Shown here: in pieces, positions 1-17,857 of the stretch
How positions within the stretch are numbered: position 1 is the stretch's first letter
Layout of the letters: the number at the start of each line of letters is the position of its first letter
Assembly: GCA_002968845.1 (NCBI GenBank)
Contig: PVBG01000001.1
Span: 186,001-250,000, forward strand
Reading direction: 5' to 3'
Source of the DNA: Neorhizobium tomejilense
GTDB taxonomy: Bacteria > Pseudomonadota > Alphaproteobacteria > Rhizobiales > Rhizobiaceae
Length of the DNA stretch: 64,000 bases
Position numbers and translations under genes: made by a program
Notes under the pieces: model-generated
Database searches by the model: none
What the model saw: only the letters and a program-made list of their open reading frames with translations
Told to the model about the DNA's origin: nothing

Positions 1-208
1 TCTATGAATTGCTTCGACCGGGAGGAGGCCTCGATTTCCGCCGAGCCGTCGAGGCGAGGTTCGAGAACCGGGCTGTTGGGAGGAGATGGCGGGAGGAGAC
101 CGCTGACCCTCAATTGCATGAGACATCTTGAGACGATGCATATCGTATCCCGAACCGGCTTTGCCGGCGGGCGGCATGCAGGAGAGCAACCGAGGGAAGG
201 TTAAGACA
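1..208. other. Leader region before ligM, no convincing gene
   Basis: This stretch contains several purine-rich GGGAGGAG runs and a short open frame at 4-204 with no recognisable protein features. It probably holds the promoter and untranslated leader of the O-demethylase gene that starts at 209, and possibly the tail of whatever lies before the window. No clear -35/-10 pair could be chosen. Confidence 0.4.
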
Positions 209-1615
209 ATGCCGAAGAATCTGACCCAGATCCTGAAAGAAAAGGGCAATACTGTCGAGATGCTGCGCAATTCGCGCATCGGCATGTATATCTATCCGGT
301 CGTCGCACCGGAGTTTTCGAACTGGCGCACCGAGCAGATGGCATGGCGCCATTCGGCGGTCCTGTTCGACCAGTCCCACCACATGGACGAACTGATCGTC
401 GAAGGCCCGGACGCGTCCAGGTTCCTCGAAAGCCTGGCGATCAACAGCTTTGCCAATTTCGGCGTCGATCGCGCCAAGCACTATGTTCCGGTGACGCCTG
501 CCGGACACGTCATCGGCGACATGATCATCTTCCGCGAGCGTGACGACAAGTTCGTGCTCGTCGGCCGTGCGCCGACCGCCAACTGGCTGCGCTACAACGC
601 TTCGCTCGGCAAGCATGACGTCAAGCTCACCCACGACCCGCGTTCGCCTTCGCGCCCGGACGGCAAGGAAGTCAATCGCGTTCACTACCGCTTCCAGATC
701 CAGGGTCCGGACGCTCCGAAGATCTTTGAAAAGATGAATGGCGGCCCGATCCCCGACATCAAGTTCTTCCATGTCGACTGGATCAATATCGGCTCCAAGA
801 AGGTCCAGGCCCTGCGCCACGGCATGGCCGGCGCGCCCGGTCTCGAAGTTTGGGGACCCTATGCCGAAAAGGACGAGGTCCGCGAGATCATCGTCAAGGC
901 CGCCAGGGATGCCGGCGTCGACCTCTACCTCGTCGGTGCGCGCGCATACTCGACCAACACGCTGGAATCCGGCTGGATTCCCTCGCCGCTGCCGGGCATC
1001 TACACCGGCGCCGAATTGCAGGGTTATCGCGACTGGCTGACGGAAGACAGCTACGAAGCGACCGGCTCGATCGGCGGCAGCCTCGTCTCCGACAATATCG
1101 AAGACTATTACGTCAATCCGTACGAACTCGGTTACGGCATCTACATCAAGTTCGACCACGACTTCGTCGGCCGCGAGGCGCTGGAAAAGATGAAGGGTCA
1201 GCCGCAGCGCAAGAAGGTCACCTTCGAGTGGAACGCGGAAGACGTGATGAAGGTCATCGCCTCGAACTTCGTACCCGGCGGCGAGGCCTACAAGTGGATC
1301 GACCTGCCGCAGCCGAACTACGCATCTTCGAGCGCCGACAGGATCATGCATGGCGACAAGGTCGTCGGCATGTCGATGTTCAACGGCTACAGCTACAACG
1401 AACGCTGCATGCTGTCGCTCGGCGTCGTCGATGCGGATGTCCAGGAAGGCGACGTCCTGACGTTGATCTGGGGCGAACCGAATGGTGGAACCGGCAAGAC
1501 CTCGATCGAAAAGGGCCACAAACAGGCCGAAATCCGCGTCCGCGTCTCGCCAACCCCCTACGCCGCCGAAGCCCGCGAAAACTATGCCGAAAGCTGGCGC
1601 ACCAAGAAGGTCTGA
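209..1615 (+). CDS. ligM: Tetrahydrofolate-dependent aryl O-demethylase (LigM/DesA type, GcvT fold)
   Basis: 468-residue protein of the GcvT/aminomethyltransferase fold. Sphingobium LigM and DesA in this family move the methyl group of vanillate, 3-O-methylgallate or syringate to tetrahydrofolate in the cytoplasm. The N-terminal run GNTVEMLRNS, then YPVVAPEFSNWRTEQ, LFDQSHHM, the central RHGMAGAPGLE and the later NTLESGWIPSPLP and NIEDYYVNPYE are all typical of the LigM branch, and the length is close to LigM's 471. The frame extends upstream to 128, but ATG 209 has a GGGAAGG ribosome site at the right distance and gives the family N-terminus. Vanillate versus syringate preference cannot be decided. 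No folate-recycling genes (ligH, metF) are nearby, so general C1 metabolism would have to take the methyl group. Confidence 0.85.
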   Translation: MPKNLTQILKEKGNTVEMLRNSRIGMYIYPVVAPEFSNWRTEQMAWRHSAVLFDQSHHMDELIVEGPDASRFLESLAINSFANFGVDRAKHYVPVTPAGHVIGDMIIFRERDDKFVLVGRAPTANWLRYNASLGKHDVKLTHDPRSPSRPDGKEVNRVHYRFQIQGPDAPKIFEKMNGGPIPDIKFFHVDWINIGSKKVQALRHGMAGAPGLEVWGPYAEKDEVREIIVKAARDAGVDLYLVGARAYSTNTLESGWIPSPLPGIYTGAELQGYRDWLTEDSYEATGSIGGSLVSDNIEDYYVNPYELGYGIYIKFDHDFVGREALEKMKGQPQRKKVTFEWNAEDVMKVIASNFVPGGEAYKWIDLPQPNYASSSADRIMHGDKVVGMSMFNGYSYNERCMLSLGVVDADVQEGDVLTLIWGEPNGGTGKTSIEKGHKQAEIRVRVSPTPYAAEARENYAESWRTKKV

Positions 1616-1702: not shown

Positions 1703-3091
1703 TTAGCCTGCATCCCCCATCTTGCCCGGGTTCATGATCCCCAGGGGATCGAGTGCTGCCTTGATCTTCTTCATCACGTCCACCGCCTTGCCGTGTTCGC
1801 GGCGCATGAATTTGAGCTTGGCGATGCCGATGCCGTGTTCGCCGCTGGCCGTGCCGCCGACGGCGAGCGCCCGTTCGACGACGCGGTCGGCCATCTCGTC
1901 GGCTTCCTTAAGATGCTCCGGATTGTTCGGATCGATCAGGTAGGCGGTGTGGAAATTGCCGTCGCCGACATGGCCGATGATCTGGCCCGTCAGCGAGGAG
2001 GCGTCGATATCGGCGCGCGCTGCGACTATGCTTTCGGCAAGCCTGGAGATCGGCACGCAGATATCGCCGGTATAGAGTTCAAAGCCCGGAATGATCGCCT
2101 TGGTCGCCCAGAAAAGGTCATGGCGGGCCTGCCAGAGTTTTGCCCGCTCGTCGGCATCGGCTGTCCAGCGGAAGGAGATTGCATTGTGGCCCCTGGTGAT
2201 CTCTTCGACCAGCTTTGCCTGTTCCTCGACCCAGGCGGACGTGCCGTGGAATTCGAAAAACAGCGTCGGGGCGACCGGCATGTCCAGCTTGGAATAGTTG
2301 TTGACGCCGGCGATCGCCACTTCGTCCAGAAACTCCACGCGGGCGACCGGAATACCATATTGCACCGCCTCGATCACCGCTTCCACGGCATTGGCGACAG
2401 TCGGGAAAGGGCAGAAGGCAACCGACACGGCTTCCGGGATCGGATGCAGGCGGACGGTGAGTTCGGTAATCACGCCAAGCGTGCCTTCGGAGCCGACGAA
2501 GAGATGCGTCAGGTCGTAGCCCGATGAGGATTTCCTGGCCCGCGAGCCGGTCTGGATTGCCTCGCCATCGGGTGTCACTACCCGGAGGGCCAGCACGTTT
2601 TCGCGCATCGTGCCGTAGCGGACCGAAGTGGTGCCGCTGCCGCGCGTCGACGCCATGCCGCCGATCGAGGCGTCGGCACCCGGATCGACAGAGAACATTA
2701 GGCCGGTTTCGCGCAGGTCCACGTTGAGCTGCTTGCGGGTGACGCCGGGCTGGACGACGGCCAGCAGGTCCTCGGGCCGGATTTCGAGGATCCTGTTCAT
2801 CTCGCGGGTATCGAGCGAGATGCCGCCGCGGATCGGGATCGTATGGCCTTCCATCGAGGACCCCGCACCGAAGGGCACGACCGGTACGCCATGCGCAGCA
2901 CAGGCAGAAACGATCGCCCGGACCTCTTCTTCGGTGCGTGGAAAGGCGACGGCATCGGGCAGGCGAGGGGTGAGCCGCGACGTGTCGTGGCTGTGATGCT
3001 CTCGGACGGAAGCCGAGGTCACCAGCCTGTCGCCGATAATGCCTTTGAGTTTCGCAATCGCCTGACCGACCGGCGTGACGAGATCATCCAT
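1703..3091 (-). CDS. FAD-linked 2-hydroxyacid dehydrogenase (GlcD / D-lactate dehydrogenase family)
   Basis: 462-residue flavoprotein of the VAO/PCMH fold, which oxidises 2-hydroxyacids (glycolate, D-lactate, D-2-hydroxyglutarate, D-mandelate) to 2-oxoacids. The FAD domain covers roughly residues 35-215, with VPFGAGSSMEGH and VDPGADASIGGMASTRGSGT. The C-terminal FAD-oxidase cap carries IIGHVGDGNFH and GEHGIGIAKL, and the product ends with the usual ALDPLGIMNPGKM. The start at 3091 follows an AGGGAGGAAG ribosome site; the eight codons upstream of it are probably not translated. It converges on ligM and is followed on the opposite strand by a TRAP importer and a benzoylformate-decarboxylase homologue, so an aryl-2-hydroxyacid such as a mandelate is an attractive but unproven substrate. 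Confidence 0.8.
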   Translation of the reverse strand: MDDLVTPVGQAIAKLKGIIGDRLVTSASVREHHSHDTSRLTPRLPDAVAFPRTEEEVRAIVSACAAHGVPVVPFGAGSSMEGHTIPIRGGISLDTREMNRILEIRPEDLLAVVQPGVTRKQLNVDLRETGLMFSVDPGADASIGGMASTRGSGTTSVRYGTMRENVLALRVVTPDGEAIQTGSRARKSSSGYDLTHLFVGSEGTLGVITELTVRLHPIPEAVSVAFCPFPTVANAVEAVIEAVQYGIPVARVEFLDEVAIAGVNNYSKLDMPVAPTLFFEFHGTSAWVEEQAKLVEEITRGHNAISFRWTADADERAKLWQARHDLFWATKAIIPGFELYTGDICVPISRLAESIVAARADIDASSLTGQIIGHVGDGNFHTAYLIDPNNPEHLKEADEMADRVVERALAVGGTASGEHGIGIAKLKFMRREHGKAVDVMKKIKAALDPLGIMNPGKMGDAG

Positions 3092-3541
3092 TTTTCTTCC
3101 TCCCTGATGCCGCAATGATGACTTGAATAATCGTGCCCAGGGCTCGATCCGGTGTACGGATGCAAAGCAACCAGGGCCGGAAATCCTGGCGCGTCCCGGC
3201 GTTTCCGCGAACGGTTTTGGACGCCGATACCGTATCCCAACCGATCGGCCGGCAGCTTCTACCGGCCGAACATTCCCTCCTTCAGATCAGGGTCTCCCAG
3301 CCCCGCCTTGTTACCCCATTCTTCCTGCCGTGTATGCATGAAGCGCTGCCGTGACATTCTAGACGGTTTGAACCAAGGTTGAAGTGCCTATCGGAAAAAT
3401 CTCAGGAGCCCTGACTTTTTGTATCCCAAAGCGAAATGGAAGCTTGTCGTTTCAGCCTGGATGTGTTGAAATTCGAACGTTCGGGTAGGCGATGTCGGGA
3501 GGACGGCGTCACCTTGGGAGACCGGGCATGGGAGGAAATCG
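3092..3541. other. Intergenic region upstream of the TRAP operon
   Basis: About 450 bases without a supportable gene. It holds the promoter of the minus-strand dehydrogenase and probably the start of the plus-strand TRAP transcript. Two short inverted repeats stand out: AACCAAGGTT at 3371-3380 and the perfect palindrome CGAACGTTCG at 3474-3483, the latter about 60 bases before the small frame at 3542. Either could be an operator, but no regulator gene is adjacent. Confidence 0.35.
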
Positions 3542-3809: not shown

Positions 3810-4829
3810 ATGAAACTGAAGGCATTGCTCGCTTCGGCCTGCCTCGCGGCGCTGATTGCACCCGCTCACGCCGCCGACGTAGAACTGACATTGTCGCACT
3901 GGGTACCCGCCACCCATGCGCTGCAGCCGGGCGGGATGGAGCCTTGGGCGAAATCGATCAAGGAAGCGTCCGGCGGGCGCATCAACATCACCATATACCC
4001 CGCCTCTCAGCTCGGCGCCGCACCCGATCATTACGACATGGCGCGCGACGGTATCGTCGATATCGGCTTCATCAATCCGGGTTATCAGCCGGGGCGTTTC
4101 CCGATCATCGCGGCGGGCGAAATTCCCTTCCTGATCGCCAATGCCAAGGGCGGGTCGCGGGCGCTCGACGAATGGTATGGGCAGTACGCCCAGAAGGAAA
4201 TGAAGGACGTCTACGTCTGCATGGTGCATCTGCATGACCCGGGGACGCTGCACGGCGTCAAGGGACCGATCCAGGTTCCTGCGGACCTGAAGGGCAAGAA
4301 CATTCGCCCCGCGCACGCGACCATGGCCCGCATGGTGAGCTCACTCGGCGCCGCATCGGTGCAGGTGCCGGCGGGCGAAATGCGCGAACTGATCTCCAAG
4401 GGAGGTGCCGACATGACCGCCTCGCCCTGGAACTCGATCTATACGTTCGGTCTGCAGGACGTGACCAAGCATCATCTCGACCTGCCGTTTTATGCCACGA
4501 CCTTCGCCTTCGTGATGAACAAGGCCAAGATCGACGGGCTTTCCGCCGCCGACCGTAAGGTGATCGACGATCACTGCACACCCGAATGGGCCGAGAAAAT
4601 GGCCAGCAAGTGGGCCGATGCGGAAGCGGCCGGGCGCCAGAAGATGATCGATGCGGGCGGCCACACCCTCTACAAGCCGACACCGGATGAGGTGGGCCTC
4701 TGGAAAAAGGCGACAGGTTCGCTGCAAGGCGAATGGGAGACCGCAGCCACCAAGGCCGGCATAGACGCGAAGGCGGCCTGGGCGAGCCTGCAAGAGACGC
4801 TCAAGAAATACGGCGCCGACGTGAAATAG
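3810..4829 (+). CDS. dctP: TRAP transporter substrate-binding protein (DctP family)
   Basis: 339-residue periplasmic receptor of a tripartite ATP-independent importer. Residues 1-21 form a Sec signal peptide ending in PAHA before ADVELTLSHWVPATH, the usual first strand of DctP proteins. NIRPAHATMARMVSSLGA sits in the region that usually carries the conserved arginine binding an organic acid carboxylate, followed by the family hinge (PAGEMRELISKGGADMTAS). The start follows AAAGGGAGGAG. It leads a dctPQM set. The ligand cannot be read from sequence; the neighbouring decarboxylase and demethylase suggest an aromatic or hydroxy acid. Confidence 0.88.
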   Translation: MKLKALLASACLAALIAPAHAADVELTLSHWVPATHALQPGGMEPWAKSIKEASGGRINITIYPASQLGAAPDHYDMARDGIVDIGFINPGYQPGRFPIIAAGEIPFLIANAKGGSRALDEWYGQYAQKEMKDVYVCMVHLHDPGTLHGVKGPIQVPADLKGKNIRPAHATMARMVSSLGAASVQVPAGEMRELISKGGADMTASPWNSIYTFGLQDVTKHHLDLPFYATTFAFVMNKAKIDGLSAADRKVIDDHCTPEWAEKMASKWADAEAAGRQKMIDAGGHTLYKPTPDEVGLWKKATGSLQGEWETAATKAGIDAKAAWASLQETLKKYGADVK

Positions 4830-4903: not shown

Positions 4904-5404
4904 ATGAACCGCTATCTGGAACGCTTCAGCGACGTGGTCGATCTTGTGGCAGGCATCCTGCTGGGGCTGTGTACCATCCTGATCGTCGCTTCCACCGTTG
5001 GCCGCTATGTCCTGGCGTGGCCGATCCCCGACTCCTTCGATATTTCGCGCTATCTGATCGGCGCCTGCATCATGTGGGGCCTGGCGTCGCTCGGTTATCG
5101 CGGGGGGCACATTGCGGTCGACCTGCTCTACGAGCCTATGGGTCAGCGGGGGCGCCGCATCCTCAATTTCATCGCCTGGGCGCTGCTCCTCGTCTTCACG
5201 GCCATGCTCGCCTACATGATGTTCTTCCGCCTCGCCAGCGCCTATCGGAGCAATGAAGCGACGTTCGATCTGCGCATCCCCGTCTGGCCATTGATCGGAC
5301 TGATCTGGCTCGGCTGCGCATCGGCCGTCGTCACCACCGCGATCTCGCCTTTCGTTCGGCGCGAACCTGAAGATATCGATCCGCTTGAGGGCCATGGCGT
5401 ATGA
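4904..5404 (+). CDS. dctQ: TRAP transporter small permease (DctQ family)
   Basis: 166-residue inner-membrane protein with four predicted hydrophobic segments (around residues 14-36, 47-67, 86-108 and 124-145), the layout of DctQ subunits that pair with the large permease. ATG 4904 starts the family-like MNRYLERFSDVVDLVAG; the frame is open further upstream to 4733, but that stretch overlaps dctP and is not protein-like. No strong ribosome site precedes it. Its stop overlaps the dctM start as ATGA, which implies translational coupling. Confidence 0.85.
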   Translation: MNRYLERFSDVVDLVAGILLGLCTILIVASTVGRYVLAWPIPDSFDISRYLIGACIMWGLASLGYRGGHIAVDLLYEPMGQRGRRILNFIAWALLLVFTAMLAYMMFFRLASAYRSNEATFDLRIPVWPLIGLIWLGCASAVVTTAISPFVRREPEDIDPLEGHGV

Positions 5405-6696
5405 ATACCGCTGATCTCGTCGCTATCGGCGGCTTTGTCGCCATGTTCGTGCTCATGGGCCTGCGCGTTCCGCTCGGCGTTTCGATGGGGCTGGTCGGCA
5501 TATTCGGCTTTGCCGCCATGCGCGGCATGTCGCCGGCGCTCAACCTGCTGACGACATCGCCGATCCGCGTCATTACCGACTTCAACCTGACGCTCGTGCC
5601 GTTCTTTATCCTGATGGGTGCCTTTGCCACCAATTCCGGCATGTCGCGGGAATTGTTCAGGACGGGCAATGCCTGGCTCGGACAGTTCCGGGGAGGGCTC
5701 GCCCTCTCCACGATCGGCGCCTGTGCCGGATTTGCGGCGATTTGCGGCAGTTCGATTGCGACCGCCGCGACAATGACCCGGATCGCGCTGCCCGAGATGC
5801 GCAAGGCGAAATACGCCGATGCCACCTCGACCGGCGTTATCGCCGCGGGCGGCACGCTCGGCATTCTGATCCCGCCTTCGGTGATCATGGTCGTCTACGC
5901 CTTTCTGACGGAGACGGATGTCGCGCAGCTGCTGATGGCCGGCATAATCCCCGGCATCATGGCGACCTTCATGTACATGGCGACGGTGCTGATCGCCCAC
6001 GGCAAGCGGTTGCCGCCCGGAAAGCCGTTTGAGCTGAGGGAAGCTCTCGCATCGCTTCGGGACGTCTGGGCCGTCATGCTTCTTTTCATCTCCGTCATCG
6101 GGGTCATCTATCTCGGTATCGCAACCGCGACGGAAGCGGCGGCGGTCGGCGCATTGATGACCATGGTCATCGGCTTGCTGCGCGGCCGGCTAAACTATCG
6201 GTCCATCATGGCGAGCCTCGTGGAGTCGCTCCGGACGTCGGTTTCGCTGTTCAGCGTGCTGATCGGCGCCATCCTGTTCGGCTATTTCCTGGCGATCACC
6301 CAGTCGCCGCAGAAGCTGACGGCACTGCTGGTAGGAATGGATCTCGGGCCATATGGGACGCTGACGCTGATCCTGGTCATTTTCCTGATCGCCGGGGCTT
6401 TGATGGACGAGATGGCGATGATCATCCTGCTCGTGCCGATCGTCTTCCCGGTCATCAGCCATCTTGGCTTCGACCCCGTCTGGTTCGGCATCATCATCGT
6501 CGTCGCCTGCCAGCTCGGCATGATCATGCCGCCTGTCGGCATCAATGTCTTCGTGATCAATTCGATTGCGAAGGACGTGAAGATCACCACGATCTACGGC
6601 GGCGTCATGCCTTTCATTCTCAACGATATCATCCGGCTTTTCCTGCTGGTGGCGTTCCCGGTGATCTCGCTCTGGCTGCCGCAAACGATGAGATAA
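5401..6696 (+). CDS. dctM: TRAP transporter large permease (DctM family)
   Basis: 431-residue polytopic protein, normal length for DctM, the sodium-coupled channel subunit. About a dozen hydrophobic helices are visible. Family stretches include VPFFILMGAFATNSGMSRELF, AAICGSSIATAATMTRIALPEM, GTLGILIPPSVIMVVYAFLTE and GMIMPPVGINVFVI. It overlaps dctQ by four bases and is followed five bases later by the DUF3237 gene, so the four are probably one transcript ending at the terminator near 7184. Confidence 0.9.
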   Translation: MNTADLVAIGGFVAMFVLMGLRVPLGVSMGLVGIFGFAAMRGMSPALNLLTTSPIRVITDFNLTLVPFFILMGAFATNSGMSRELFRTGNAWLGQFRGGLALSTIGACAGFAAICGSSIATAATMTRIALPEMRKAKYADATSTGVIAAGGTLGILIPPSVIMVVYAFLTETDVAQLLMAGIIPGIMATFMYMATVLIAHGKRLPPGKPFELREALASLRDVWAVMLLFISVIGVIYLGIATATEAAAVGALMTMVIGLLRGRLNYRSIMASLVESLRTSVSLFSVLIGAILFGYFLAITQSPQKLTALLVGMDLGPYGTLTLILVIFLIAGALMDEMAMIILLVPIVFPVISHLGFDPVWFGIIIVVACQLGMIMPPVGINVFVINSIAKDVKITTIYGGVMPFILNDIIRLFLLVAFPVISLWLPQTMR

Positions 6697-6701
6697 CACA
6701 C

Positions 6702-7160
6702 ATGATGGCACCGAGCCTCAGACAGCTTTGCGAAATCCGCGCCGAACTCGGCACGCCGATCGAAAAGGGAGGCGGCCCGGGCGGCCGCTGGCGGATCATC
6801 CCGATCATCGGCGGCGTGGTCGAAGGGGAGCGCCTTTCCGGGCGCGTCCTCAATCTCGGCGCGGACTGGCAGAGTGTCTATGATACCGGTTATGCGGAAC
6901 TCGACACCCGTTACGTGATCGAGACCCATGACGGGGCGATGATCGACATCCGCAATTTCGGTTTCCGGCACGGGCCGCCGGACGTGCTGGCGAAGCTGGC
7001 GAAGGGCGAGGCGGTCGATCCGGCGCTCTATTACATGCGCACGACGCCGCGCTTGCAGACCGGCGATCCGAGATACGCCTGGCTCAACCACACCATGTTC
7101 ATCGGCACCGGCGAGCGCTTGGCAAATGCCGTCAGGATCGGCGTTTTCGAAGTACTCTGA
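6702..7160 (+). CDS. DUF3237 (UPF0311) family protein
   Basis: 152-residue cytoplasmic protein resembling the DUF3237 family: the GRWRIIPIIGGVVEGERLSGRVLNLGADWQ opening, then DTRYVIETHDGAMIDIRNFG, and YYMRTTPRLQTGDPRYAWLNHTMFIGTG near the end. These are small beta-barrel proteins of unknown biochemical role that often sit beside catabolic genes. Here it is the last gene of the TRAP operon, five bases after dctM. Two adjacent ATG codons (6702 and 6705) are possible starts. Confidence 0.75.
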   Translation: MMAPSLRQLCEIRAELGTPIEKGGGPGGRWRIIPIIGGVVEGERLSGRVLNLGADWQSVYDTGYAELDTRYVIETHDGAMIDIRNFGFRHGPPDVLAKLAKGEAVDPALYYMRTTPRLQTGDPRYAWLNHTMFIGTGERLANAVRIGVFEVL

Positions 7161-7234: not shown

Positions 7235-10200
7235 TCAGGCCATGTGGATCGTCTTGACCTCGAAGTAGTTTTCGAGGCCTTCGGGACCACCCTCGCGGCC
7301 GATGCCGGACTGCTTGAACCCGCCGAACGGGTGGTGGATGTCGACGATCATGCCGTTGACCGTCACGCTGCCGGTCCGCATGCGGCGGGCAAAGGCATAA
7401 CCACGCTCCGGATCGGAGCTGAAGACCGCGCCGGACAGGCCGTAGGTGCTGTCGTTGGCGATCTTTGCCGCTTCGTCATCGTCCTTGTAGCTGATGATCG
7501 AGACAACCGGGCCGAAGATTTCTTCCTGGGCGATCTTCATGTCCATCGTCACGTCGGTGAAGACGGTCGGTTCAATGAAGTAACCGCGGTCGAAGCCCTT
7601 CGGACGCCCGCCGCCGCAGGCAACCGTCGCACCGCCTGCACGGCCGGCAGCGATGTAGCCTTCGACGCGGGCAAGCTGGCGGGCCATGGTGAGCGGGCCC
7701 ATCTGGGTGGTTGGATCGGCCGGGTCGCCGACCTTGATGTTCTTCACCGCACCGACATAGAGGTCGATGAATTCCTGTTTGCGGGATTCCGGCACCAGGA
7801 TACGGGTCAGCGAGAAGCAGACCTGGCCGGTGATCGGCATGGAATAGACCATCAGCGCCGGCAGGGCCTTGGCGAAGTCGGCATCGTCCAGAAGCACGGC
7901 CGCGGACTTGCCGCCGAGTTCGAGGCTGACGCGGGCGAGGCGGTCGGCGCAGGCGGCGGCGATGGTCTTACCGGCAATGGTCGAGCCGGTGAACGACACC
8001 TTGTCGATACCCTGGTGGCGGACGAGGTAATCGCCGCCTTCGCGGCCGGCCGGAACGAGGTTGAAGACGCCCTTGGGCAGCCCGGCCTTTTCGATGCATT
8101 CGGCCAGAAGATAGGCATCCAGTGGGGTTTCCGGCGAGGGCTTGGCGACAATCGTGCAGCCGGCGGCAAGCGCTGCCGAGACCTTGTAGTTGAGGAGCAC
8201 CATCGGCGCGTTCCACGGCGTGATCGCGGCGCAGACGCCGACTGGCTCGCGCACGACACGGACTTCGCCGCCATCGGCGCGCTTGCGCTGATCGACGAAC
8301 TCGTCGTTCTCGATCAGGCCTGCATAATAGTTGTAGAGGCCGGGGTTCTGGCCGACGAGCTTCTTGGTCAGGAAGATCGGCGCACCGACCTGGGTGGTCC
8401 AGGCATTGGCAATCTCGTCGAGGCGGGCGGTCAGGAGGTCCGCGACCTTGCGCAGATAACCGGCACGTTCCTTGAAGGTCATACGCGGCCACGGGCCATT
8501 GTCGAAGGCGTCGCGGGCGGCGGCAACGGCCTTGTCGATATCGGCGTTGCTGGCTTCGGGATAGCTCATCAGCACTTCTTCGGTCACCGGCGAGATGACG
8601 TCGAGCTTGTTGGTGCCGAGCGGGGCGACCCATTCACCGCCGATGAAGAACTTTTCGGGAGTTTTCAGGACCTGTTCGTTTCTGACAGCGACATTCATTT
8701 CAGTCTCCTCCTCGGATAGAATGATTTCCAAAAGCCGCGGCCCCTTCATCTTGAGAAGGTCCCGCAGGCATGACGACAGTTCGTCGCCCTTTTCGCAGCG
8801 AACGGCCTTGCAGCCCTGCGCTTTGGCGATTTGCACGAAATCCATGTGGCCGATGTCGACACCGTCGATGCGGCCGGAGCCACTCCGCTCGGCAATCGCC
8901 TTCAGCACCTTGTAGCCGCCGTTATTGAGGATGACGATCAGCAGATCGGCATCGTATTCGACGGCGGACCAGATCGACTGGATGGAATAGAGGCTCGATC
9001 CGTCGCCGATGACGGCGATGACCGGTTGTTCCGGCCTGGTCAGGGCCGCACCGACCGAGCCGGGCAGGGCATAACCGAGCCCACCGCTGGCGGTGGCGAA
9101 AAAGCCGCCGGGCCGTTCGATGGGGAAGAAATCGTGTAGCGCGTCACGGCCGCTTGGGGCTTCCTCGAAGACGATGCTGTCAGGCGAGCGAACGTCGGCG
9201 AGCGTCTGGTAGAAAAATTCCTGGGTGATGCCCTTCGGTGTTTTCAGGCGCGGAATGGTGCGGGCCGGTCCGCTCGTTCGCTGCGGACGGCAGCGCAGGC
9301 GGTAGACGAGGCTTTCGGTGGCGGCGCGCAGGTTCGAGACCATCGCGTTGCCGACGATCGCGCTCGCGGCCTGGGCCGGGTCGTCGGTGATCAGCCACAG
9401 TTCCGCACCTTGCGGGATATCCGGGCCGGAGCCGGCGAAATGATAGGTGAAGGCCGGCGCGCCGAGGACCAGCACGAGATCGGCGCCATGCAGGCAATTG
9501 GCGAGCTTCGGCTGGAAGGCCGGCAGGAAGCCGGCAAACAGCGGATGACGCTCCGGAAAGCTGCAGCGCGACGAAAGCGGGCTTACCCACACCTTCGCCT
9601 GCAGGATTTCGGCCAGCCGTACCGTGGCGTCCCAGGCATTGTCGATATCGACGCCCGGTCCGACAACGAGCACCGGCTCCTTGGCATCGTTCAGCTGGCG
9701 GGCGAGATCGTCGATCGCCGAGGCAGGGGCGCTGATCACCGTTTCCACGTCGCGGATGGCGATCGGCGCTGCCTGCGCCTGCCAGTCGCTCAGGGGCACC
9801 GACACCATAACCGGTCCGCGGGGTGCCTGCATCGCCATATAATAGGCGCGGGCGATCGCTGCCGGCACGTCTTCGGCGCGGGCCGGTTCGCAGGCCCATT
9901 TCACATAGGGCTTCGGAAACTCTGTCGGGTTTTCGGCGAACAGGAACGGGTCGTGGGGGAGCAGTTCGCGGCTCTGCTGACCGGTGGTGATGATCAGCGG
10001 TGCGCGGTTACGATAGGCCGTGTAGATATTGCCGAGCGCATGGCCGAGGCCGGCGGCGGAATGCAGGTTGACGAAGGCCGGCTTGCGGCTCGTCTGCGCG
10101 TAGGCGTCGGCCATCGCAACAACGATCGATTCCTGCAGGCCGAGCACGTAGGAAAAATCTTCAGGCACGTTGACGAACATCGGCAGTTCGGTGGAGCCCG

Positions 10201-10318
10201 GGTTGCCGAAAATGCGGTCGATGCCCTTCTGCCTCAGAAAGTCGAAAACCGCCTCACTTACGGTCTGTCCACGCAGCTTCGTGCTGCTGGACAGGAAATC
10301 CAGCGACATCTTGTTCAT
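7235..10318 (-). CDS. Benzoylformate decarboxylase - aldehyde dehydrogenase fusion
   Basis: 1027-residue in-frame fusion of two complete enzymes. Residues 1-540 are a ThDP decarboxylase like MdlC: FGNPGSTELP (activating Glu), NLHSAAGLGHALG, SFPERHPLF (active-site His region) and the ThDP loop GDGSS...NNGGY. It would convert an arylglyoxylate to an aryl aldehyde. Residues 541-1027 are a full NAD(P) aldehyde dehydrogenase: TPWNAPM, FTGSTIAG, LELGGK with Glu800, GQVC with Cys834, and EEIFGPV. There is no linker between them. At the junction the codons for Glu-Glu-Glu-Thr (GAGGAGGAGACT) form an excellent ribosome site seven bases before the Met541 codon (8698), so the dehydrogenase may also be made alone. 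The usual order is two genes (mdlC, mdlD); loss of a stop codon or a sequence error are both possible. The first start has GGGAGGAGG upstream. The divergent LysR gene is the likely regulator. Confidence 0.88.
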   Translation of the reverse strand: MNKMSLDFLSSSTKLRGQTVSEAVFDFLRQKGIDRIFGNPGSTELPMFVNVPEDFSYVLGLQESIVVAMADAYAQTSRKPAFVNLHSAAGLGHALGNIYTAYRNRAPLIITTGQQSRELLPHDPFLFAENPTEFPKPYVKWACEPARAEDVPAAIARAYYMAMQAPRGPVMVSVPLSDWQAQAAPIAIRDVETVISAPASAIDDLARQLNDAKEPVLVVGPGVDIDNAWDATVRLAEILQAKVWVSPLSSRCSFPERHPLFAGFLPAFQPKLANCLHGADLVLVLGAPAFTYHFAGSGPDIPQGAELWLITDDPAQAASAIVGNAMVSNLRAATESLVYRLRCRPQRTSGPARTIPRLKTPKGITQEFFYQTLADVRSPDSIVFEEAPSGRDALHDFFPIERPGGFFATASGGLGYALPGSVGAALTRPEQPVIAVIGDGSSLYSIQSIWSAVEYDADLLIVILNNGGYKVLKAIAERSGSGRIDGVDIGHMDFVQIAKAQGCKAVRCEKGDELSSCLRDLLKMKGPRLLEIILSEEETEMNVAVRNEQVLKTPEKFFIGGEWVAPLGTNKLDVISPVTEEVLMSYPEASNADIDKAVAAARDAFDNGPWPRMTFKERAGYLRKVADLLTARLDEIANAWTTQVGAPIFLTKKLVGQNPGLYNYYAGLIENDEFVDQRKRADGGEVRVVREPVGVCAAITPWNAPMVLLNYKVSAALAAGCTIVAKPSPETPLDAYLLAECIEKAGLPKGVFNLVPAGREGGDYLVRHQGIDKVSFTGSTIAGKTIAAACADRLARVSLELGGKSAAVLLDDADFAKALPALMVYSMPITGQVCFSLTRILVPESRKQEFIDLYVGAVKNIKVGDPADPTTQMGPLTMARQLARVEGYIAAGRAGGATVACGGGRPKGFDRGYFIEPTVFTDVTMDMKIAQEEIFGPVVSIISYKDDDEAAKIANDSTYGLSGAVFSSDPERGYAFARRMRTGSVTVNGMIVDIHHPFGGFKQSGIGREGGPEGLENYFEVKTIHMA

Positions 10319-10403
10319 AGCTTCGAGGCCTCCTCCCGGCCTTCAGGGCTCCCACCCTGAGCGCATGTCTTGTCGTGGGAAGTGTCGCAGATAGCGCCCT
10401 CTC

Positions 10404-10443: not shown

Positions 10444-11355
10444 ATGACTTTGGATGTGCGCTCGGCTCAAATCGTTCTGGAATGCGCGCGGCGCGGTAGC
10501 CTCGGCGCGGCCGCCACCGCCTTGAACATGACGCAGCCAGCGATCACACGCATGCTGAAGCGGCTGGAGGACAGCTACGGCGTTCCCCTGTTCGAGCGCA
10601 CGACGCGCGGCGTGGTGCCGACTGTCTTCGGTGACGCCCTGCTTCCCTATGCCAAACTGGTCGTTTCCGAGATCGGCAATGCGACCGACGTGATCCAGCA
10701 GATGCGCGGCGCGAGCCGCGGCGTGGTGCGGATCGGCGGGGTGGCGAGCGTCGTTGGCGGTTTCATCATCGCGGTGATCGGCGAAATGCGCAAACAGCAT
10801 CCGGAGGTGCAGTACCAGGTCATCGAGGACCTGGAAGACCGGGTGCTGGAAGGGCTGAAGGGCGGAACGATCGATATCGCGATTTCGCCGGAGCCTTATC
10901 TGGACGACGATATCATCATGGCGACGCCTGACATCATGCACGACACGGTGTCGGTTTTTGCAAGGTCCGATCATCCGATCCTCAGCCGAGAGCATGTAGC
11001 GCTTGCCGAGGCGGCTGGCTTCGACTGGGCGATGCCTCCACCGGGAACACCGACGGTCAGGGAGTGGCAGCGGCGGTTCCACGACAATGCGCTGGAGCCG
11101 AACGCGCCGTCGATCGTCTCCCGCTCGGTGCCGGTTCTGAAAGCCGCGGTTCTCTCGGAAGCTATGTTCTGCTGGATGCCGCTGCCCCTGGTGCGCGAGG
11201 AGGTGGAACGGGGCGACATGGCACGCGTCAACGTGCCCGAACTCGACTGGCAGCGGACGTTCCGCGTCTACCGCCGCAAGAAGGGCCTGATGACGCCGCC
11301 GACGGTCAACCTGCTGCAATGCATTCGCCGCATCAGCGAGACCTGGTCGATGTAA
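10444..11355 (+). CDS. LysR-family transcriptional regulator
   Basis: 303-residue regulator. The N-terminal winged helix-turn-helix (residues 1-60) has the LysR pattern RRGSLGAAATALNMTQPAITRMLKRLE and LFERTTRG; the effector domain follows from about residue 90 with the two-lobed periplasmic-binding-like fold. It is transcribed away from the decarboxylase-dehydrogenase gene with 125 bases between the starts, so it most likely controls that gene in response to an aromatic acid. Only a weak AAGG stands directly before the ATG. Confidence 0.85.
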   Translation: MTLDVRSAQIVLECARRGSLGAAATALNMTQPAITRMLKRLEDSYGVPLFERTTRGVVPTVFGDALLPYAKLVVSEIGNATDVIQQMRGASRGVVRIGGVASVVGGFIIAVIGEMRKQHPEVQYQVIEDLEDRVLEGLKGGTIDIAISPEPYLDDDIIMATPDIMHDTVSVFARSDHPILSREHVALAEAAGFDWAMPPPGTPTVREWQRRFHDNALEPNAPSIVSRSVPVLKAAVLSEAMFCWMPLPLVREEVERGDMARVNVPELDWQRTFRVYRRKKGLMTPPTVNLLQCIRRISETWSM

Positions 11356-11375: not shown

Positions 11376-11561
11376 CTACCTCTGCTTGGCACCTGCGCTC
11401 TTGCCGTCCGAACTCTTCGATCTTTCCTCAAAACGGTCGGCTCCCTTGGCGAGGTCCGATCCCTTCTGAGCTTCGACCTTCTTCTCTTCCTTGCGGGTGC
11501 TCTGCTTCAGACCACGTGCGGATTCCCGACCCTTTTCGGTCGGAGCCTGTTCGATACCCAT
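11376..11561 (-). CDS. Small, highly charged hypothetical protein
   Basis: 61-residue protein that is very rich in Lys, Glu, Arg, Ser and Gln, with no hydrophobic core, so it is probably disordered or a single charged helix. The ATG at 11561 has a strong GGAGGAGAAATC ribosome site; the longer frame reaching 11747 overlaps the allophanate hydrolase gene and is not protein-like. It lies 100 bases after that gene on the same strand and may be its last operon member or independent. No function is recognised. Confidence 0.55.
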   Translation of the reverse strand: MGIEQAPTEKGRESARGLKQSTRKEEKKVEAQKGSDLAKGADRFEERSKSSDGKSAGAKQR

Positions 11562-11661
11562 GATTTCTCCTCCAGCGCCTGATTGGCGCAGCAGTCGAAC
11601 GGGCGGCGCGTGAAGGCGTTCCCGCACATGCGCATCTTTTCCGGATCTGCGTCCCGTGTGA

Positions 11662-13500
11662 TCAGCCGACGTTGCCGACCCGCGGCAGCGACGCGAACTC
11701 CTTGAGATAGGCCCGCCAGCCGCCATAGGCGGTGATGTCGAGCGCACCCTGAAGTGCGAACGGTTCGGCGAGAAATCCCTTGGCCGAGGTGCCGTCCGAC
11801 AATGTGACGGTGCCGATGCCGAGCGGGGGCGGGATCGCCGCGACGAACAGGCCGAAACCCGTCGGCGTCAGTTTCCAGACCTCGACGTCGATCTCGCCGC
11901 CTTCGCCTTCGGCGACGCGGACCATGCCGGGCTTCGGCGGCACCGTGCCGGCCAGCGCATAGAGCCTGTAAGCGGCGGAGGTTTTCGCGACCCTGGAGAA
12001 GGTGCCGTCGAGATCGGTAAGCTGATGGTTGAGCGGCATGCCGGATAGGTGCGCACCGACCACGATGACGTCGATCAGCTCGTCGCTGGCGATTGCGACA
12101 GGCGTTTCGGATGGCGCGGGAAGCGGCCAGCCGGTGGCGCCGAGCGAAAGGCCGCTCGCCTGGTGAAGGTCTCGGGCGACGGAGGCGGTAAGGCTGTCGC
12201 GGCCGAAGGGGGCGAGCAGCGTGACGCTCGCCGGCAGGCCGTCGGCGCGGGTGCCGGTCGGCACGGCGATGCCGCACATGTCAGCCAAGTTGACGAAGTT
12301 CGTATAGGTGCCGAGCCGCGAGTTTTCCCGGATCGGCTCGGCATCCAGGTCGGCACGGGTGTAGTGGGTCGGCGCGGTCGGGACGCAGAAAAGGTCGACG
12401 GAGGCGATCAGCGGCGCCAGCGTTCTCTTCAGGGCCTGCAGCGCATAGAGACCCTTGAAGGCATCGGCTGCGGAGAGTGATTTAGCACCGCCATAGATTT
12501 TTCGCGTTACTGGGTGGAAGCTTTCTTCCCTGGTGTCGAAGAACGGTTTTACCGCCGCATAACGCTCGGCCACCCAGGCGCCTTCGTAGAGCAGGTTGGC
12601 GACCTTGTAGAAATCGCCGAAGGGCACTTCGACGATCCGATGTCCGAGCCTTGCGAGCATTGATACGGCATCGCCATAGGCCGCCTCCATGACAGTATCG
12701 CCGAAGAATTGCAGGTCGGCCTTGGCGGGCACGCCGATCGTCAGCGCCGGCGGCGACCAGCCGAAGCCGGTCACCGGAACAGCTCTCGAATAGGCATCGG
12801 TCTCATCGTATTTCGCGGCGACGGAGAACACTTTCCAGGCATCGTCCGCGGTCAGTGCGAAGATCGAGACGCAGTCGAGCGTGCGGCAGGCGGGAATGAC
12901 GCCTGTGGTCGACAGCGCGCCGACGCTCGGCTTCAGCCCGACAATGTTATTCAGCCCGGCCGGGATGCGCCCTGAGCCGGCGGTATCGGTGCCGAGCGCG
13001 AAGCTGACGATGCCCTGCGCGGTGGCGACCGCCGAACCGGACGATGAGCCGCCCGGCACGAGCCTCGCGTCGATGGCATTTTTGGGGATCGGGTAGGGCG
13101 AACGGACACCGACCAGACCGGTTGCGAACTGGTCGAGATTGGTCTTGCCGATGACCAAAGCGCCGGCTGCCTTGAGCAGGCCGATCACAGTCGCGTCCTT
13201 CTCGGGCATGTAGGCATAGTCCGGGCAGGCGGCCGTGGTCGGCATGCCGGCGACGTCGATATTGTCCTTCACCGCGAAGGGAATGCCGAAGAGCGGTTTC
13301 GCTGGATCAAAGGCGCCAAGGCTTGCGGCTTCCGCCAGCGCCGTCTCCCTGTCGGCCAGGTGGATGAAGATGCCGGGATCATCGACCTCGGCGATCCGCG
13401 CGAAAACCGCCTCGACGATCTGCGCGACACTGCCGCCATCCTGGTAGAACGCGTGAAGCGAGGCGATGTCGAAGGCGGGCGTCTGTTCCGGCAAGCTCAT
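11662..13500 (-). CDS. atzF: Allophanate hydrolase (AtzF type)
   Basis: 612-residue enzyme, the normal size for AtzF, which splits allophanate into 2 NH3 and 2 CO2. Residues 1 to about 460 are an amidase-signature domain with the Ser-cisSer-Lys set: Lys in FAVKDNIDV and serines in PGGSSSGSAVA, then TDTAGSGRIPAG. The C-terminal about 150 residues (from DELIDVIVVGAHLSGMPLNHQL, ending in GALDITAYGGWRAYL) are the extra domain of true allophanate hydrolases that removes the carboxylate. ATG 13500 overlaps the upstream cupin gene by four bases; the longer frame to 13539 is less likely. It completes the biuret to allophanate to ammonia route of this operon. Confidence 0.88.
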   Translation of the reverse strand: MSLPEQTPAFDIASLHAFYQDGGSVAQIVEAVFARIAEVDDPGIFIHLADRETALAEAASLGAFDPAKPLFGIPFAVKDNIDVAGMPTTAACPDYAYMPEKDATVIGLLKAAGALVIGKTNLDQFATGLVGVRSPYPIPKNAIDARLVPGGSSSGSAVATAQGIVSFALGTDTAGSGRIPAGLNNIVGLKPSVGALSTTGVIPACRTLDCVSIFALTADDAWKVFSVAAKYDETDAYSRAVPVTGFGWSPPALTIGVPAKADLQFFGDTVMEAAYGDAVSMLARLGHRIVEVPFGDFYKVANLLYEGAWVAERYAAVKPFFDTREESFHPVTRKIYGGAKSLSAADAFKGLYALQALKRTLAPLIASVDLFCVPTAPTHYTRADLDAEPIRENSRLGTYTNFVNLADMCGIAVPTGTRADGLPASVTLLAPFGRDSLTASVARDLHQASGLSLGATGWPLPAPSETPVAIASDELIDVIVVGAHLSGMPLNHQLTDLDGTFSRVAKTSAAYRLYALAGTVPPKPGMVRVAEGEGGEIDVEVWKLTPTGFGLFVAAIPPPLGIGTVTLSDGTSAKGFLAEPFALQGALDITAYGGWRAYLKEFASLPRVGNVG

Positions 13501-13850
13501 GCCATTTCCTCTTCCAGTATTGTCACCGGCCGGTCCCACTGGATAAGGACGACGCAGCCGGTATCGCTCCAGACGGAGTGTTCGGTGCCGGGCGCATTGA
13601 CGATATAGCTGCCGCGACCGTAGTCGCCGGCCTCGTCGGATTGCACGCCCTCGAGCACCAGGATGGTTTCGAGGCCTTCATGGCGATGGCGGGGAACGCC
13701 GGCGCCGGCCTCGTATTTCAGCAGCGCCACGCCCGGCTGGTCGCCTTCGAAGGGGCGGATCCAGTGGATCGTGACCTCGTCGCGGAAGGGCTCGAATTCC
13801 AAGTCTTTCCATCCACCTAGCGTCAGAAGTTCGCGGGTTGATTCAGGCAT
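13497..13850 (-). CDS. Cupin-domain protein (ChrR-like)
   Basis: 117-residue single cupin barrel. The metal-binding motifs are visible: PRHRHEGLETILVLEG (two His and a Glu) and the second motif around NAPGTEHSVWS (His). It resembles the cupin of ChrR but lacks the anti-sigma zinc part, so it is probably a small metal-dependent enzyme or ligand-binding protein. It overlaps genes on both sides (eight bases with the hydrolase before it, four with allophanate hydrolase after), which implies tight co-translation. Its step in ureide breakdown is unknown. Confidence 0.7.
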   Translation of the reverse strand: MPESTRELLTLGGWKDLEFEPFRDEVTIHWIRPFEGDQPGVALLKYEAGAGVPRHRHEGLETILVLEGVQSDEAGDYGRGSYIVNAPGTEHSVWSDTGCVVLIQWDRPVTILEEEMA

Positions 13851-14538
13851 TGGTGATCCCCTTTGGCGCGATCCCTTCCAGAATGTCGTCCACATGGGCG
13901 GTCCAGCCGACGATGGCGCCCTGGGCGCGGATCATGGCGATGGCCGCCGCCTTGAACTCCGGAAAATAGCTTTCGGTCGCCTCTTCGGCGAGCAGGCATT
14001 CGTAGCCGCGGTCGTTCGCCTCGCGCATCGTTGTCTGGACGCAGACTTCCGTCGTCACGCCGGCAAAGACGAGCTGGCTGATGCCTTTCGCCTTCAGCAC
14101 GTCACTCAGTTCGGTGGCGTAGAAGGCGCCCTTGCCGGGCTTTTCGATCACCACCTCGCCACCGATCGGCGCGAGTTCGGAGATGATCGCCGTACCCGGT
14201 TCGCCTGAAATCAGCACCCGACCCATGGGGCCGACATCACCGATCCTGAGCGTTGGATTGCCGCGGTCGCGCTTGGCGGGCGGCAGGTCGGAAAGGTCCG
14301 GCTTGTGGCACTCCATGGTGTGGATGACCGGCAGGCCGGCATCGCGAAAACCCTGGATCAAGCGTTTGACGTCCGGCACGATCTTGGTGATGCGGCCGAC
14401 ATCGTTACCGAGGCTGGCGCCAAAACCGCCAGGTTCGGCGAAATCGCGCTGCATATCGATGACGATGAGCGCCAGCGCACCTGGTTTCGCCGGGAAAGCG
14501 AAGGGTTCTGCCTTGATCTCGATTATCCCCTCGGCCAT
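13843..14538 (-). CDS. Isochorismatase-fold amidohydrolase, second copy (biuret/triuret-type)
   Basis: 231-residue cysteine hydrolase. The triad is intact: Asp in VIDMQRDF, Lys in EKPGKGAFYAT, Cys in TTEVCVQTT, plus the family [13 protein letters not shown]. It is clearly a paralogue of the biuret hydrolase at 17145-17849 but diverged in the first 60 residues and around the substrate pocket. Known members of this family hydrolyse biuret (BiuH), triuret (TrtA) and ureidoacrylate (RutB). The overlap with both neighbours places it in the cyanurate/biuret operon; a triuret or carboxybiuret substrate is possible but unproven. Confidence 0.75.
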   Translation of the reverse strand: MAEGIIEIKAEPFAFPAKPGALALIVIDMQRDFAEPGGFGASLGNDVGRITKIVPDVKRLIQGFRDAGLPVIHTMECHKPDLSDLPPAKRDRGNPTLRIGDVGPMGRVLISGEPGTAIISELAPIGGEVVIEKPGKGAFYATELSDVLKAKGISQLVFAGVTTEVCVQTTMREANDRGYECLLAEEATESYFPEFKAAAIAMIRAQGAIVGWTAHVDDILEGIAPKGITNA

Positions 14539-16088
14539 CAGTGATGCCCCGCCATATGGGCGCCGATGACGCCGATATCGGCGGCGCGGATCGGTGTTTC
14601 GTAGACCAGCTTACCCTCCGAGATCACCATGATGCGGTCCGACATTTCCAGCAGTTCGTCGAGATCTTCCGAGAGCAGCAGCACGGCGGTGCCCGAATTG
14701 CGGGCCCGCATGATGCGGGCGCGGATTTCGGCGACGGCTGAGAAATCCAGGCCGAAACAGGGGTTGGAGACGATCAGCAGGTCGACATCGCCGGTCAGCT
14801 CACGAGCGAGCACGGCGCGCTGGACGTTGCCTCCGGACAGTGCCGCGATCGGCGATGACGAGGAAGCGGTCTTCACCTTGAAATCGGAAATCAGCAACGA
14901 GGCACGTTTCTTCATCTCGCCCTTGTTCAGCCAGATCGCATCCTTGCCGTCGCCCTTGAGGTCGAAGGTGCGGAAGGCAAGGTTTTCGCTGACCGTCATT
15001 TTTGGCGCGCAGGCGTTCTGGAGGGGTTCTTCGGGGATGAAGCGGACGTTGTTCCTGCGGGTTTCTGGGCGGGTCGCGCCATAGGCTTCGCCGTTGACGG
15101 TCACCGTGCCTCGGTCGGTCGGGCGCTGGCCGGCGAGGATTTCGGTCAGCTCCTTCTGGCCGTTGCCGGAAATGCCGGCGATGCCGACGATCTCGCCGGA
15201 TCGGACCGTCAAGTTGTCGATCTCGATCGTCTTCAGGCCGGATCGGTCCGGCGCCTTGACCTGTTCGACCTTCAATACCGATTTCGCGGCTTCCGGCACC
15301 GGCAGGCGGCTGTCGAGTTCTGCAAGCTTGACGTCGCCGATCATCATTCCCGCCATGTCGGAGGTGGAAAGTTCGCTGACCTTGCCGGTGCCGACCAGCC
15401 TGCCGCGGCGCAGGATCGACACGGCATCGGCGAACTTCGTCACCTCGTGGAACTTGTGGCTGATCATCAGCACCGTCAGTTCGCCGCGCTCGGTCATGCC
15501 GCGCACGATGCCGAGCATCTCGTCGGCTTCGGCCGGCGTCAGCACGGAGGTCGGTTCGTCGAGCACGAGGAAGGAACGGCCGAGATAGAGCTGCTTGACG
15601 ATCTCCAGCTTCTGCTTCTCGCCGGCCGCCAGCTCGCTCACCGGCCGTTCGAGCGGGATCTGGAACGGCATGCGCTGCATGAAGGCGGCAAGATCCTTGC
15701 GCTCCTTCGCCCAGTTGATCACCGAGGGCACGGAGGTGCGGCTGATCACCAGGTTTTCGGCGCCGGTCAGCGAGGGGACGAGCGTGAAGTGCTGGTAGAC
15801 CATGCCGAGCCCGTAAGTGGCGGCATCCTTGGGCGAGGCGACCGAGACTTCCCGGCCGTCGACCGAGAGCGAGCCCGCAGTCGCGTGGTAGAAGCCCATG
15901 ATGCATTTGACGAGCGTCGACTTGCCGGCGCCGTTTTCCCCGAGCAGAGCATGGAACGAACCGGCGGGCACGCTGATCGAGACGTTGTCGAGCGCGGTGA
16001 AGGAACCGAACCGCATGGTCATGCCGAGCGTTTCGATGCCGACCGCCTTGCCGGCCTGGGGTAGGGGCGTATCGCGGACGATGCTCAC
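14538..16088 (-). CDS. ABC importer ATPase with two nucleotide-binding domains (BMP/nucleoside type)
   Basis: 516-residue fused ATPase. The first domain (about 20-245) has Walker A GENGAGKST, a shortened signature in ELAAGEKQKLEIVKQL and Walker B LVLDEPTSVLT. The second (about 275-510) has a degenerate A loop (GISGNGQKE) and signature LSGGNVQRAVLARE, as is usual for YufO/RbsA-type proteins. It belongs with the two permeases and BmpA-like receptor upstream, although hydrolase genes separate them. GTG 16088 follows AAAGGAG. The gene order suggests cyanurate, barbiturate or a related ureide as cargo. Confidence 0.88.
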   Translation of the reverse strand: MSIVRDTPLPQAGKAVGIETLGMTMRFGSFTALDNVSISVPAGSFHALLGENGAGKSTLVKCIMGFYHATAGSLSVDGREVSVASPKDAATYGLGMVYQHFTLVPSLTGAENLVISRTSVPSVINWAKERKDLAAFMQRMPFQIPLERPVSELAAGEKQKLEIVKQLYLGRSFLVLDEPTSVLTPAEADEMLGIVRGMTERGELTVLMISHKFHEVTKFADAVSILRRGRLVGTGKVSELSTSDMAGMMIGDVKLAELDSRLPVPEAAKSVLKVEQVKAPDRSGLKTIEIDNLTVRSGEIVGIAGISGNGQKELTEILAGQRPTDRGTVTVNGEAYGATRPETRRNNVRFIPEEPLQNACAPKMTVSENLAFRTFDLKGDGKDAIWLNKGEMKKRASLLISDFKVKTASSSSPIAALSGGNVQRAVLARELTGDVDLLIVSNPCFGLDFSAVAEIRARIMRARNSGTAVLLLSEDLDELLEMSDRIMVISEGKLVYETPIRAADIGVIGAHMAGHH

Positions 16089-16089
16089 T

Positions 16090-17849: not shown

Positions 17850-17857
17850 TGTCTCTC

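Follow-up and report, generated by a model that had tools for sequence, protein, structure and literature searches.

A single gene of Neorhizobium tomejilense joins a benzoylformate decarboxylase (BFDC)-type enzyme to an aldehyde dehydrogenase (ALDH) in one reading frame. It was found in a stretch of 64,000 nucleotides, here called the window, which comprises positions 186,001 to 250,000 of contig PVBG01000001.1 (assembly GCA_002968845.1). From the features of its sequence we consider it probable that this gene yields both the fused protein and a free dehydrogenase, which are likely to turn methoxylated benzoylformate into acid via a vanillin-type aldehyde. The gene lies on the minus strand, with its start ATG at 10318 and its stop codon at 7237-7235, and the product is 1027 amino acids long. 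Its parts and the signals at its two starts are as follows:

7235..10318, minus strand: fused BFDC-ALDH gene, 1027 codons plus stop, one uninterrupted frame
8699..10318, minus strand: codons 1-540, BFDC-type thiamine diphosphate (ThDP) enzyme, assigned by PRK07092 score, BFDC matches in PDB and catalytic residues
7238..8698, minus strand: codons 541-1027, ALDH, assigned by PF00171, catalytic residues and ALDH-only relatives
10329..10337, minus strand: Shine-Dalgarno (SD) sequence of the first start codon, GGGAGGAGG, assigned by sequence
8705..8713, minus strand: internal SD sequence, GAGGAGGAG, read in frame as Glu536-Glu538
8696..8698, minus strand: internal start codon ATG (Met541), 66 Met and 2 Val in 68 fused protein clusters, aligned with the start of ALDH-only genes

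The first-pass annotation of this DNA had described a BFDC fused in frame to an ALDH, both halves being complete with their catalytic motifs, and the open frame, the domains and the invariant residues agree with that description. A domain scan located the TPP_enzyme_N, M and C domains within residues 19-532 and the Aldedh domain at residues 563-1024. The BFDC half scored 680.9 bits with the NCBIfam benzoylformate decarboxylase model PRK07092, whose cut-off is 493, and a sequence search of PDB matched it to BFDC chains with up to 421 bits. The ALDH half scored 531 bits with PF00171, and its best PDB match was 3b4w, together with betaine-aldehyde-dehydrogenase-like chains. No NCBIfam ALDH model exceeded its cut-off among the 25 matches listed of 97 and, therefore, this half was given no named equivalog. 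Residues S42, E63, H86 and H293, which we take to be the counterparts of the catalytic Ser26, Glu47, His70 and His281 of Pseudomonas putida BFDC, are identical in 68/68 fused clusters, and so are C834, E800, N703 and K726, presumably the catalytic Cys, Glu, Asn and Lys of the ALDH. Most listed relatives of the ALDH half (114 of 120) have no ThDP domain, are 484-501 amino acids long and share 73-81% identity with it. The lowest synonymous variation of the whole fused gene, calculated with 14 sequences from the genus, was found at codons 822-838 (window positions 7805-7855, minus strand; a ratio of 0.33 across 17 codons), a stretch that leads up to and surrounds the catalytic Cys834.

The DNA at the joint reads TCC GAG GAG GAG ACT GAA followed by ATG AAT. 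The codons for Glu-Glu-Glu-Thr had been proposed to form an SD sequence for the ATG at 8698, and this was borne out by a duplex energy of -11.6 kcal/mol at Met541, which beats those of all other 20 in-frame ATGs scored in the gene. Only 4 of 1020 codon positions, Met541 included, reach an energy as strong, and the SD match before Met541 is not chance-like. In 20 of the 21 fused loci available as DNA, the energy of the SD-antiSD duplex at Met541 surpasses that at every other in-frame ATG, and in all 21 the 45-base start region at Met541 is among the 0.6-13% most open positions. Codons 536-540 show zero synonymous change in the 14 genus sequences. A putative SD sequence and an in-frame start codon are thus conserved together, as would be expected of a dual-product gene with an in-frame internal start.

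Position 541 has an entropy of 0.19 bit in the 68 fused clusters, while the other columns between 535 and 550 range from 1.07 to 2.9 bits, except 538 with 0.78 bit. Parsimony on the BFDC tree assigned two changes to position 541 vs. a mean of 19.2 over 13 further columns of the linker (not counting 537, 538 and 541, which formed the site under test), a difference with a rough Poisson P of 9e-7, since the test assumes equal rates per column. AlphaFold2, run with a 58-row alignment, gave a mean predicted local distance difference test score (pLDDT) of 85.5, with residues 537-550 below 50. The predicted structure is that of two folded enzymes joined by a floppy linker at residues 537-550; the earlier statement that the joint has no linker is corrected accordingly. 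It could be argued that the fusion alone is functional and that Glu-Glu-x-x-Met is a protein-level feature of this linker, e.g., a protease site or a spacer, rather than a ribosome site. Glu/Lys537 and Glu/Asp538 are indeed conserved as residues in the fused clusters, and 47/68 of these are 1023-1028 amino acids long. However, a variation limited to Met and Val, with no Leu or Ile in 68 clusters, suits start codons better than side-chain needs. Besides, all 14 genus genes use GAG at Glu536-537 and ACT at Thr539, and in ALDH-only relatives a start codon preceded by an SD-like sequence occupies this position. We consider this explanation very improbable.

A full-length fused frame without an inner stop was present in 14 of 200 genomes searched, the genome under study included; four others had the ALDH only and one the BFDC only (E <= 1e-150). 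Among 394 genomes of the family, eight (again with the own genome) had the gene fused over nearly its full length, 12 had the ALDH only (E <= 1e-200), and two had broken or cut copies (G1155, G1076). Searches of 397 genomes of the order and 385 of the class found the fused form solely in genomes already counted, and its distribution is therefore patchy. Carriers, whose names are inferred, include Neorhizobium vignae, N. galegae, N. petrolearium, Xaviernesmea oryzae, Rhizobium terrae and R. populisoli. The protein database contributed at least 67 further fused clusters of 988-1059 amino acids and 65-93% identity among the best 120 of 430 matches listed, with single clusters named Oricola, Aminobacter, Aquamicrobium, Mesorhizobium, Pseudoruegeria and Pararhodobacter. 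The first-pass annotation had kept in view a one-base sequencing error near 8700, as well as the case that all close relatives have two separate genes. An error hiding a stop between two ordinary genes is suggested by a TGA that occurs in a shifted frame beside the ATG at 8698, but the same open joint is found in independent assemblies of 13 other genus genomes and five more distant family genomes, and this explanation was ruled out, its probability being negligible. Likewise, with 67 further listed clusters fused, close relatives are not uniformly composed of two genes.

Unfused relatives end and start at the same place. The alignment extends to position 541 in 14 of the 17 ALDH-only loci, and all 14 have a start codon there (13 ATG, 1 GTG) behind a sequence that, judged by eye, is SD-like. 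Seven unfused BFDC proteins, 67-73% identical to the BFDC half, terminate at the joint; P0237 ends in SEEE, P0238, P0239 and P0243 in TEEN, P0241 in SVEE, P0236 in TEEGTR, and P0240 in SKEEGQA. The terminus of another separate BFDC, P0249 (62% identity), lacks the run of Glu, and several further entries in the range P0236-P0261 are incomplete or contain frameshifts. Four separate BFDCs share the contig size with an ALDH starting with MN, namely P0238/P0127 (280448; both Chelativorans sp.), P0240/P0234 (5935066; both Beijerinckia), P0241/P0132 (28188) and P0237/P0226 (10852).

A single clade of fused forms was rejected by the approximately unbiased (AU) test (p = 4e-6), carried out with 53 fused vs. 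seven separate and four outgroup rows; 15 near-duplicate fused rows, the separate P0246, P0249 and P0250, two outgroup rows and P0082/P0083 were left out by eye. This BFDC tree has four changes between the fused and separate states, two of them forced by starred branches. In a fuller BFDC tree there are seven changes, at least four of them forced, and fused forms are interspersed with separate ones. For the ALDH half, a FastTree phylogeny built with 53 of the 68 fused rows and 35 unfused rows has at least three forced changes. The unfused row P0246 lies next to fused rows on a branch of zero length and might reflect an error in its sequence. Because the fused forms are not one clade and the unfused relatives end at the same codons, the stop appears to have been altered on more than one occasion, with the restart site being retained. 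The view of the gene as two coupled genes whose stop was lost finds support in the unfused BFDCs ending within the same codons and in the retained restart site; a stop loss at the joint is a plausible origin of the fused form, but not as one clean event. A stronger version of this history is that the stop was repeatedly removed and restored with the linker ribosome site under selection, that the fused enzyme and free subunits are made in a set ratio and form mixed oligomers trapping the toxic aldehyde, and that this arrangement evolved on at least one further occasion, with a dehydrogenase of a distant subfamily. We advance this version only tentatively, its chances being somewhat short of even. 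P0082 and P0083 consist of a BFDC (50% and 45% identity to the BFDC half) joined to an ALDH of another subfamily (36-37% to the ALDH half, 63% to each other), and their protein sequences again have Lys/Glu-rich residues and a Met at the joint. A pair of in-frame neighbors on a Nitratireductor plasmid, considered as a further fusion, turned out to consist of two separate genes, one annotated as acetolactate synthase and the other as ALDH. These genes (L105:1528-4581) are in one frame, 63 bases apart, and might represent a pre-fusion arrangement of another ThDP enzyme/ALDH pair.

Several observations weigh against the dual-product model. At one locus, L051, another ATG equals or beats Met541, whose SD is weak (-5.9 kcal/mol). 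Synonymous shuffles match the observed SD in 0-13% of draws in the 14 genus genes (over 10% in four of them) and in 2-89% of draws in the seven fused loci from outside the genus, and SD strength follows mostly from the amino acids. Since shuffles reach it so often outside the genus, the signal there sits in the amino acids (Glu-Glu or Lys-Glu) and not in codon choice, and codon-level selection for the SD was not shown in those seven loci. The joint ranks 14/1019, 5/1015, 8/1011 and 10/1007 for low synonymous variation in windows of 9, 13, 17 and 21 codons, respectively, i.e., among the lowest in the 14 genus genes, yet not the lowest. The predicted template modeling score of the structural model (pTM, 0.55) leaves the relative arrangement of the domains unfixed. 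The AU-test tree came with a long-branch warning. As to the two-gene form, we infer from contigs of equal size that the separate BFDC and ALDH genes of the four pairs are adjacent, and DNA with the two genes was not found when two separate BFDCs were used as queries against 296 genomes of the family and 287 of the order. All matches over the limit in these searches (six in the family, one in the order) were fused genes, so two-gene forms are rare in the genomes searched.

An alternative explanation is that the ribosome site and Met541 are relics, with a recent stop loss in each fused lineage and the fusion protein alone being made or relevant. The interleaving on the tree means that some fusions may be young, and in six of the seven non-genus fused loci the amino acids by themselves often yield an SD of this strength (over 10% of shuffles). 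On the other hand, within a clade of 32 fused rows plus P0246, position 541 changed once, to Val, vs. a mean of 6.8 for the other linker columns (Poisson P 0.009, as rough as the value above). Both exceptions in the 68 clusters, seen at the protein level, are Val, whose codon GTG can still initiate, and Met541 lies within a stretch predicted to be disordered. We regard the relic explanation as unlikely.

Under the dual-product model, the two-gene form would be an operon whose first gene closes with codons that also act as the ribosome site of the second gene. Loss of the stop would join the genes, and internal initiation would keep supplying free dehydrogenase subunits and set the dehydrogenase excess; fused and free subunits could then co-assemble. 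With the two enzymes tethered by the linker, oxidation of the reactive aldehyde would take place close to the site of its formation. In bacterial N-terminal proteoform pairs, one gene with two in-frame starts gives a long and a short product (PMC11005335; AerR, PMC6199135), and in Salmonella the alternative starts are reported to have a stronger SD context. The short form in those pairs is a truncated version of the long protein, whereas the predicted short form of the gene studied here is a whole second enzyme. Furthermore, unlike in those pairs, some relatives have a stop between the two enzymes and others do not.

Fusions of pathway enzymes are common. No fused BFDC-ALDH was described in the open-access literature searched, nor was a ribosome site that serves as linker codons and is kept under constraint while the stop varies from relative to relative met there. 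The suggestion that the fusion may be undescribed thus holds for that literature, but protein databases already label some of the fusions 'benzoylformate decarboxylase'. Gene fusions are usually explained by stop loss, after which the inner start is expected to decay; in this family 68 divergent fused forms have retained it. With such a persistent inner start and a stop that only some relatives have, a single family allows the passage from operon to fusion protein to be studied and tested. Should the free product exist, annotation pipelines would be overlooking an enzyme within the fused gene. In practical terms, the fusion would provide a natural catalyst of two successive steps on substituted benzoylformates, which is of interest for aromatics derived from lignin.

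The proposed substrate was deduced from the genes around the fusion. These were compared in 16 of the 20 other fused genomes, of which 14-20 kb each were read around the gene, taking over 50% identity as presence:

10444..11355, plus strand: LysR-family regulator (PF00126/PF03466), divergent from the fusion gene; 16/16 fused loci
6702..7160, plus strand: DUF3237 protein (PF11578); 14/16 fused loci
5401..6696, plus strand: tripartite ATP-independent periplasmic (TRAP) transporter large permease DctM, by hidden Markov model (HMM); 16/16 fused loci
4904..5404, plus strand: TRAP transporter small permease DctQ, named by its place between DctP and DctM; 16/16 fused loci
3810..4829, plus strand: TRAP solute-binding protein DctP (PF03480); 16/16 fused loci
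1703..3115, minus strand: GlcD-type flavin adenine dinucleotide (FAD) oxidase, proposed 2-hydroxyacid (mandelate-type) oxidase (PF01565/PF02913); 15/16 fused loci
128..1615, plus strand: LigM-type vanillate/3-O-methylgallate O-demethylase (NF047885, 695.2 bits vs. cut-off 580); 11/16 fused loci

The oxidase scored 345 bits with the GlcD model, under the cut-off of 567.9. A protocatechuate 3,4-dioxygenase beta gene over cut-off is present in the same genome. In 14 of the 17 ALDH-only loci, which were read in the same manner, none of LysR, DUF3237, DctM, the oxidase and BFDC was over 50% identity, and LigM was near in six of the 14; the ALDH is thus tied to O-demethylation even without BFDC.

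In P. putida, mdlABCD encodes mandelate oxidation followed by BFDC and aldehyde dehydrogenase steps, and mdlC and mdlD are separate genes; in the locus studied here both enzymes are encoded in one 1027-codon frame. Closer parallels come from clusters for substituted substrates. The BFDC of Rhodococcus jostii RHA1 converts 4-hydroxy-3-methoxybenzoylformate to vanillin, and the 4-hydroxybenzoylformate cluster of this strain includes vdh and a glycolate oxidase gene (PMC9811514); a GlcD-type oxidase, BFDC and ALDH are likewise together in the window. A plasmid of Rhodococcus sp. USK10 has ALDH, BFDC and GlcD-type oxidase as separate neighbors, with the ALDH about 1.7 kb from BFDC and a LysR-like frame between them; their identities to the parts of the locus studied are 50% (ALDH), 39% (BFDC) and 33% (oxidase). 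In Pseudomonas sp. LLC-1, BzfC oxidizes vanillin and syringaldehyde and is encoded beside van genes (PMC7760541). The bzfRABCD cluster resembles our locus in having a LysR regulator, BFDC, an ALDH of this activity and adjoining vanillate demethylation genes, but differs in that the genes are separate with a transporter gene between them, uptake is by a major facilitator superfamily (MFS) protein and a porin, and demethylation is by VanAB instead of a LigM-type demethylase.

The neighborhood points to a ring-methoxylated substrate rather than plain mandelate. Because of the neighbor genes, the RHA1 and BzfC literature and the protocatechuate 3,4-dioxygenase beta gene, and by analogy to the Rhodococcus counterpart with separate genes, our analysis suggests that the fusion belongs to a route from methoxylated mandelate/benzoylformate through a vanillin-type aldehyde to acid. 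In this route the TRAP transporter would import ring-methoxylated mandelate, the GlcD-type oxidase would oxidize it, and the fusion would decarboxylate the methoxylated benzoylformate and then convert the vanillin-type aldehyde to acid, which would be O-demethylated by LigM and enter the protocatechuate route. The fusion is therefore likely to act on reactive aldehydes of the vanillin type that originate from plant lignin.

The decarboxylase pocket differs from that of P. putida BFDC at positions 377, 397, 398, 460 and 464 (T377 to P, F397 to A/T, C398 to T, F464 to I/M). The changes at 397 and 464 would make room for a substituted ring. The studied protein has Val and Ile at 460 and 464, and this pair, also present in PDB chain 5dgd, could suit other 2-oxo acids. 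BFDC changes of the Val/Ile kind at these positions shift the enzyme towards aliphatic acids. That the enzyme acts on another 2-oxo acid, either plain benzoylformate or an aliphatic one, with LigM an incidental neighbor, is rather unlikely but carries some weight. Chain 5dgd outscores 1bfd against the BFDC half (421.2 vs. 417.4 bits), LigM is absent from the stretch read in 5/16 fused loci, and the oxidase is absent in one, which also speaks against the proposed route. Conversely, LigM is near ALDH-only relatives as well, and the nearest characterized clusters take substituted benzoylformates and vanillin.

Other genes were also noticed at the loci read. Members of a formyl-tetrahydrofolate deformylase (PurU) cluster are found in L077, L080 and L081, where LigM is also present, and L064 and L065 have an additional flavin mononucleotide (FMN)-dependent 2-hydroxyacid dehydrogenase. 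A second ThDP enzyme adjoins the GlcD-type oxidase in five of six distant fused loci (L064:16674-18272, L065:10430-12028 and equivalents, coordinates after orientation); the one member scanned matched PRK06154 over its cut-off. In L093 the DUF3237 gene is apparently split in two frames (11547-12001 after orientation). Positions 11662-18874 of the window, minus strand, contain in a row genes for allophanate hydrolase, cupin, two isochorismatase-like hydrolases, an ATP-binding cassette (ABC) ATPase, a ring-hydrolase-like protein (AtzD label) and a nitrilase-like protein, the first two being HMM-scanned and the others named by eye. This group looks like a ring-amide (barbiturate/cyanurate-type) breakdown cluster, and most of it also lies beside the fusion in six of ten other genus loci.

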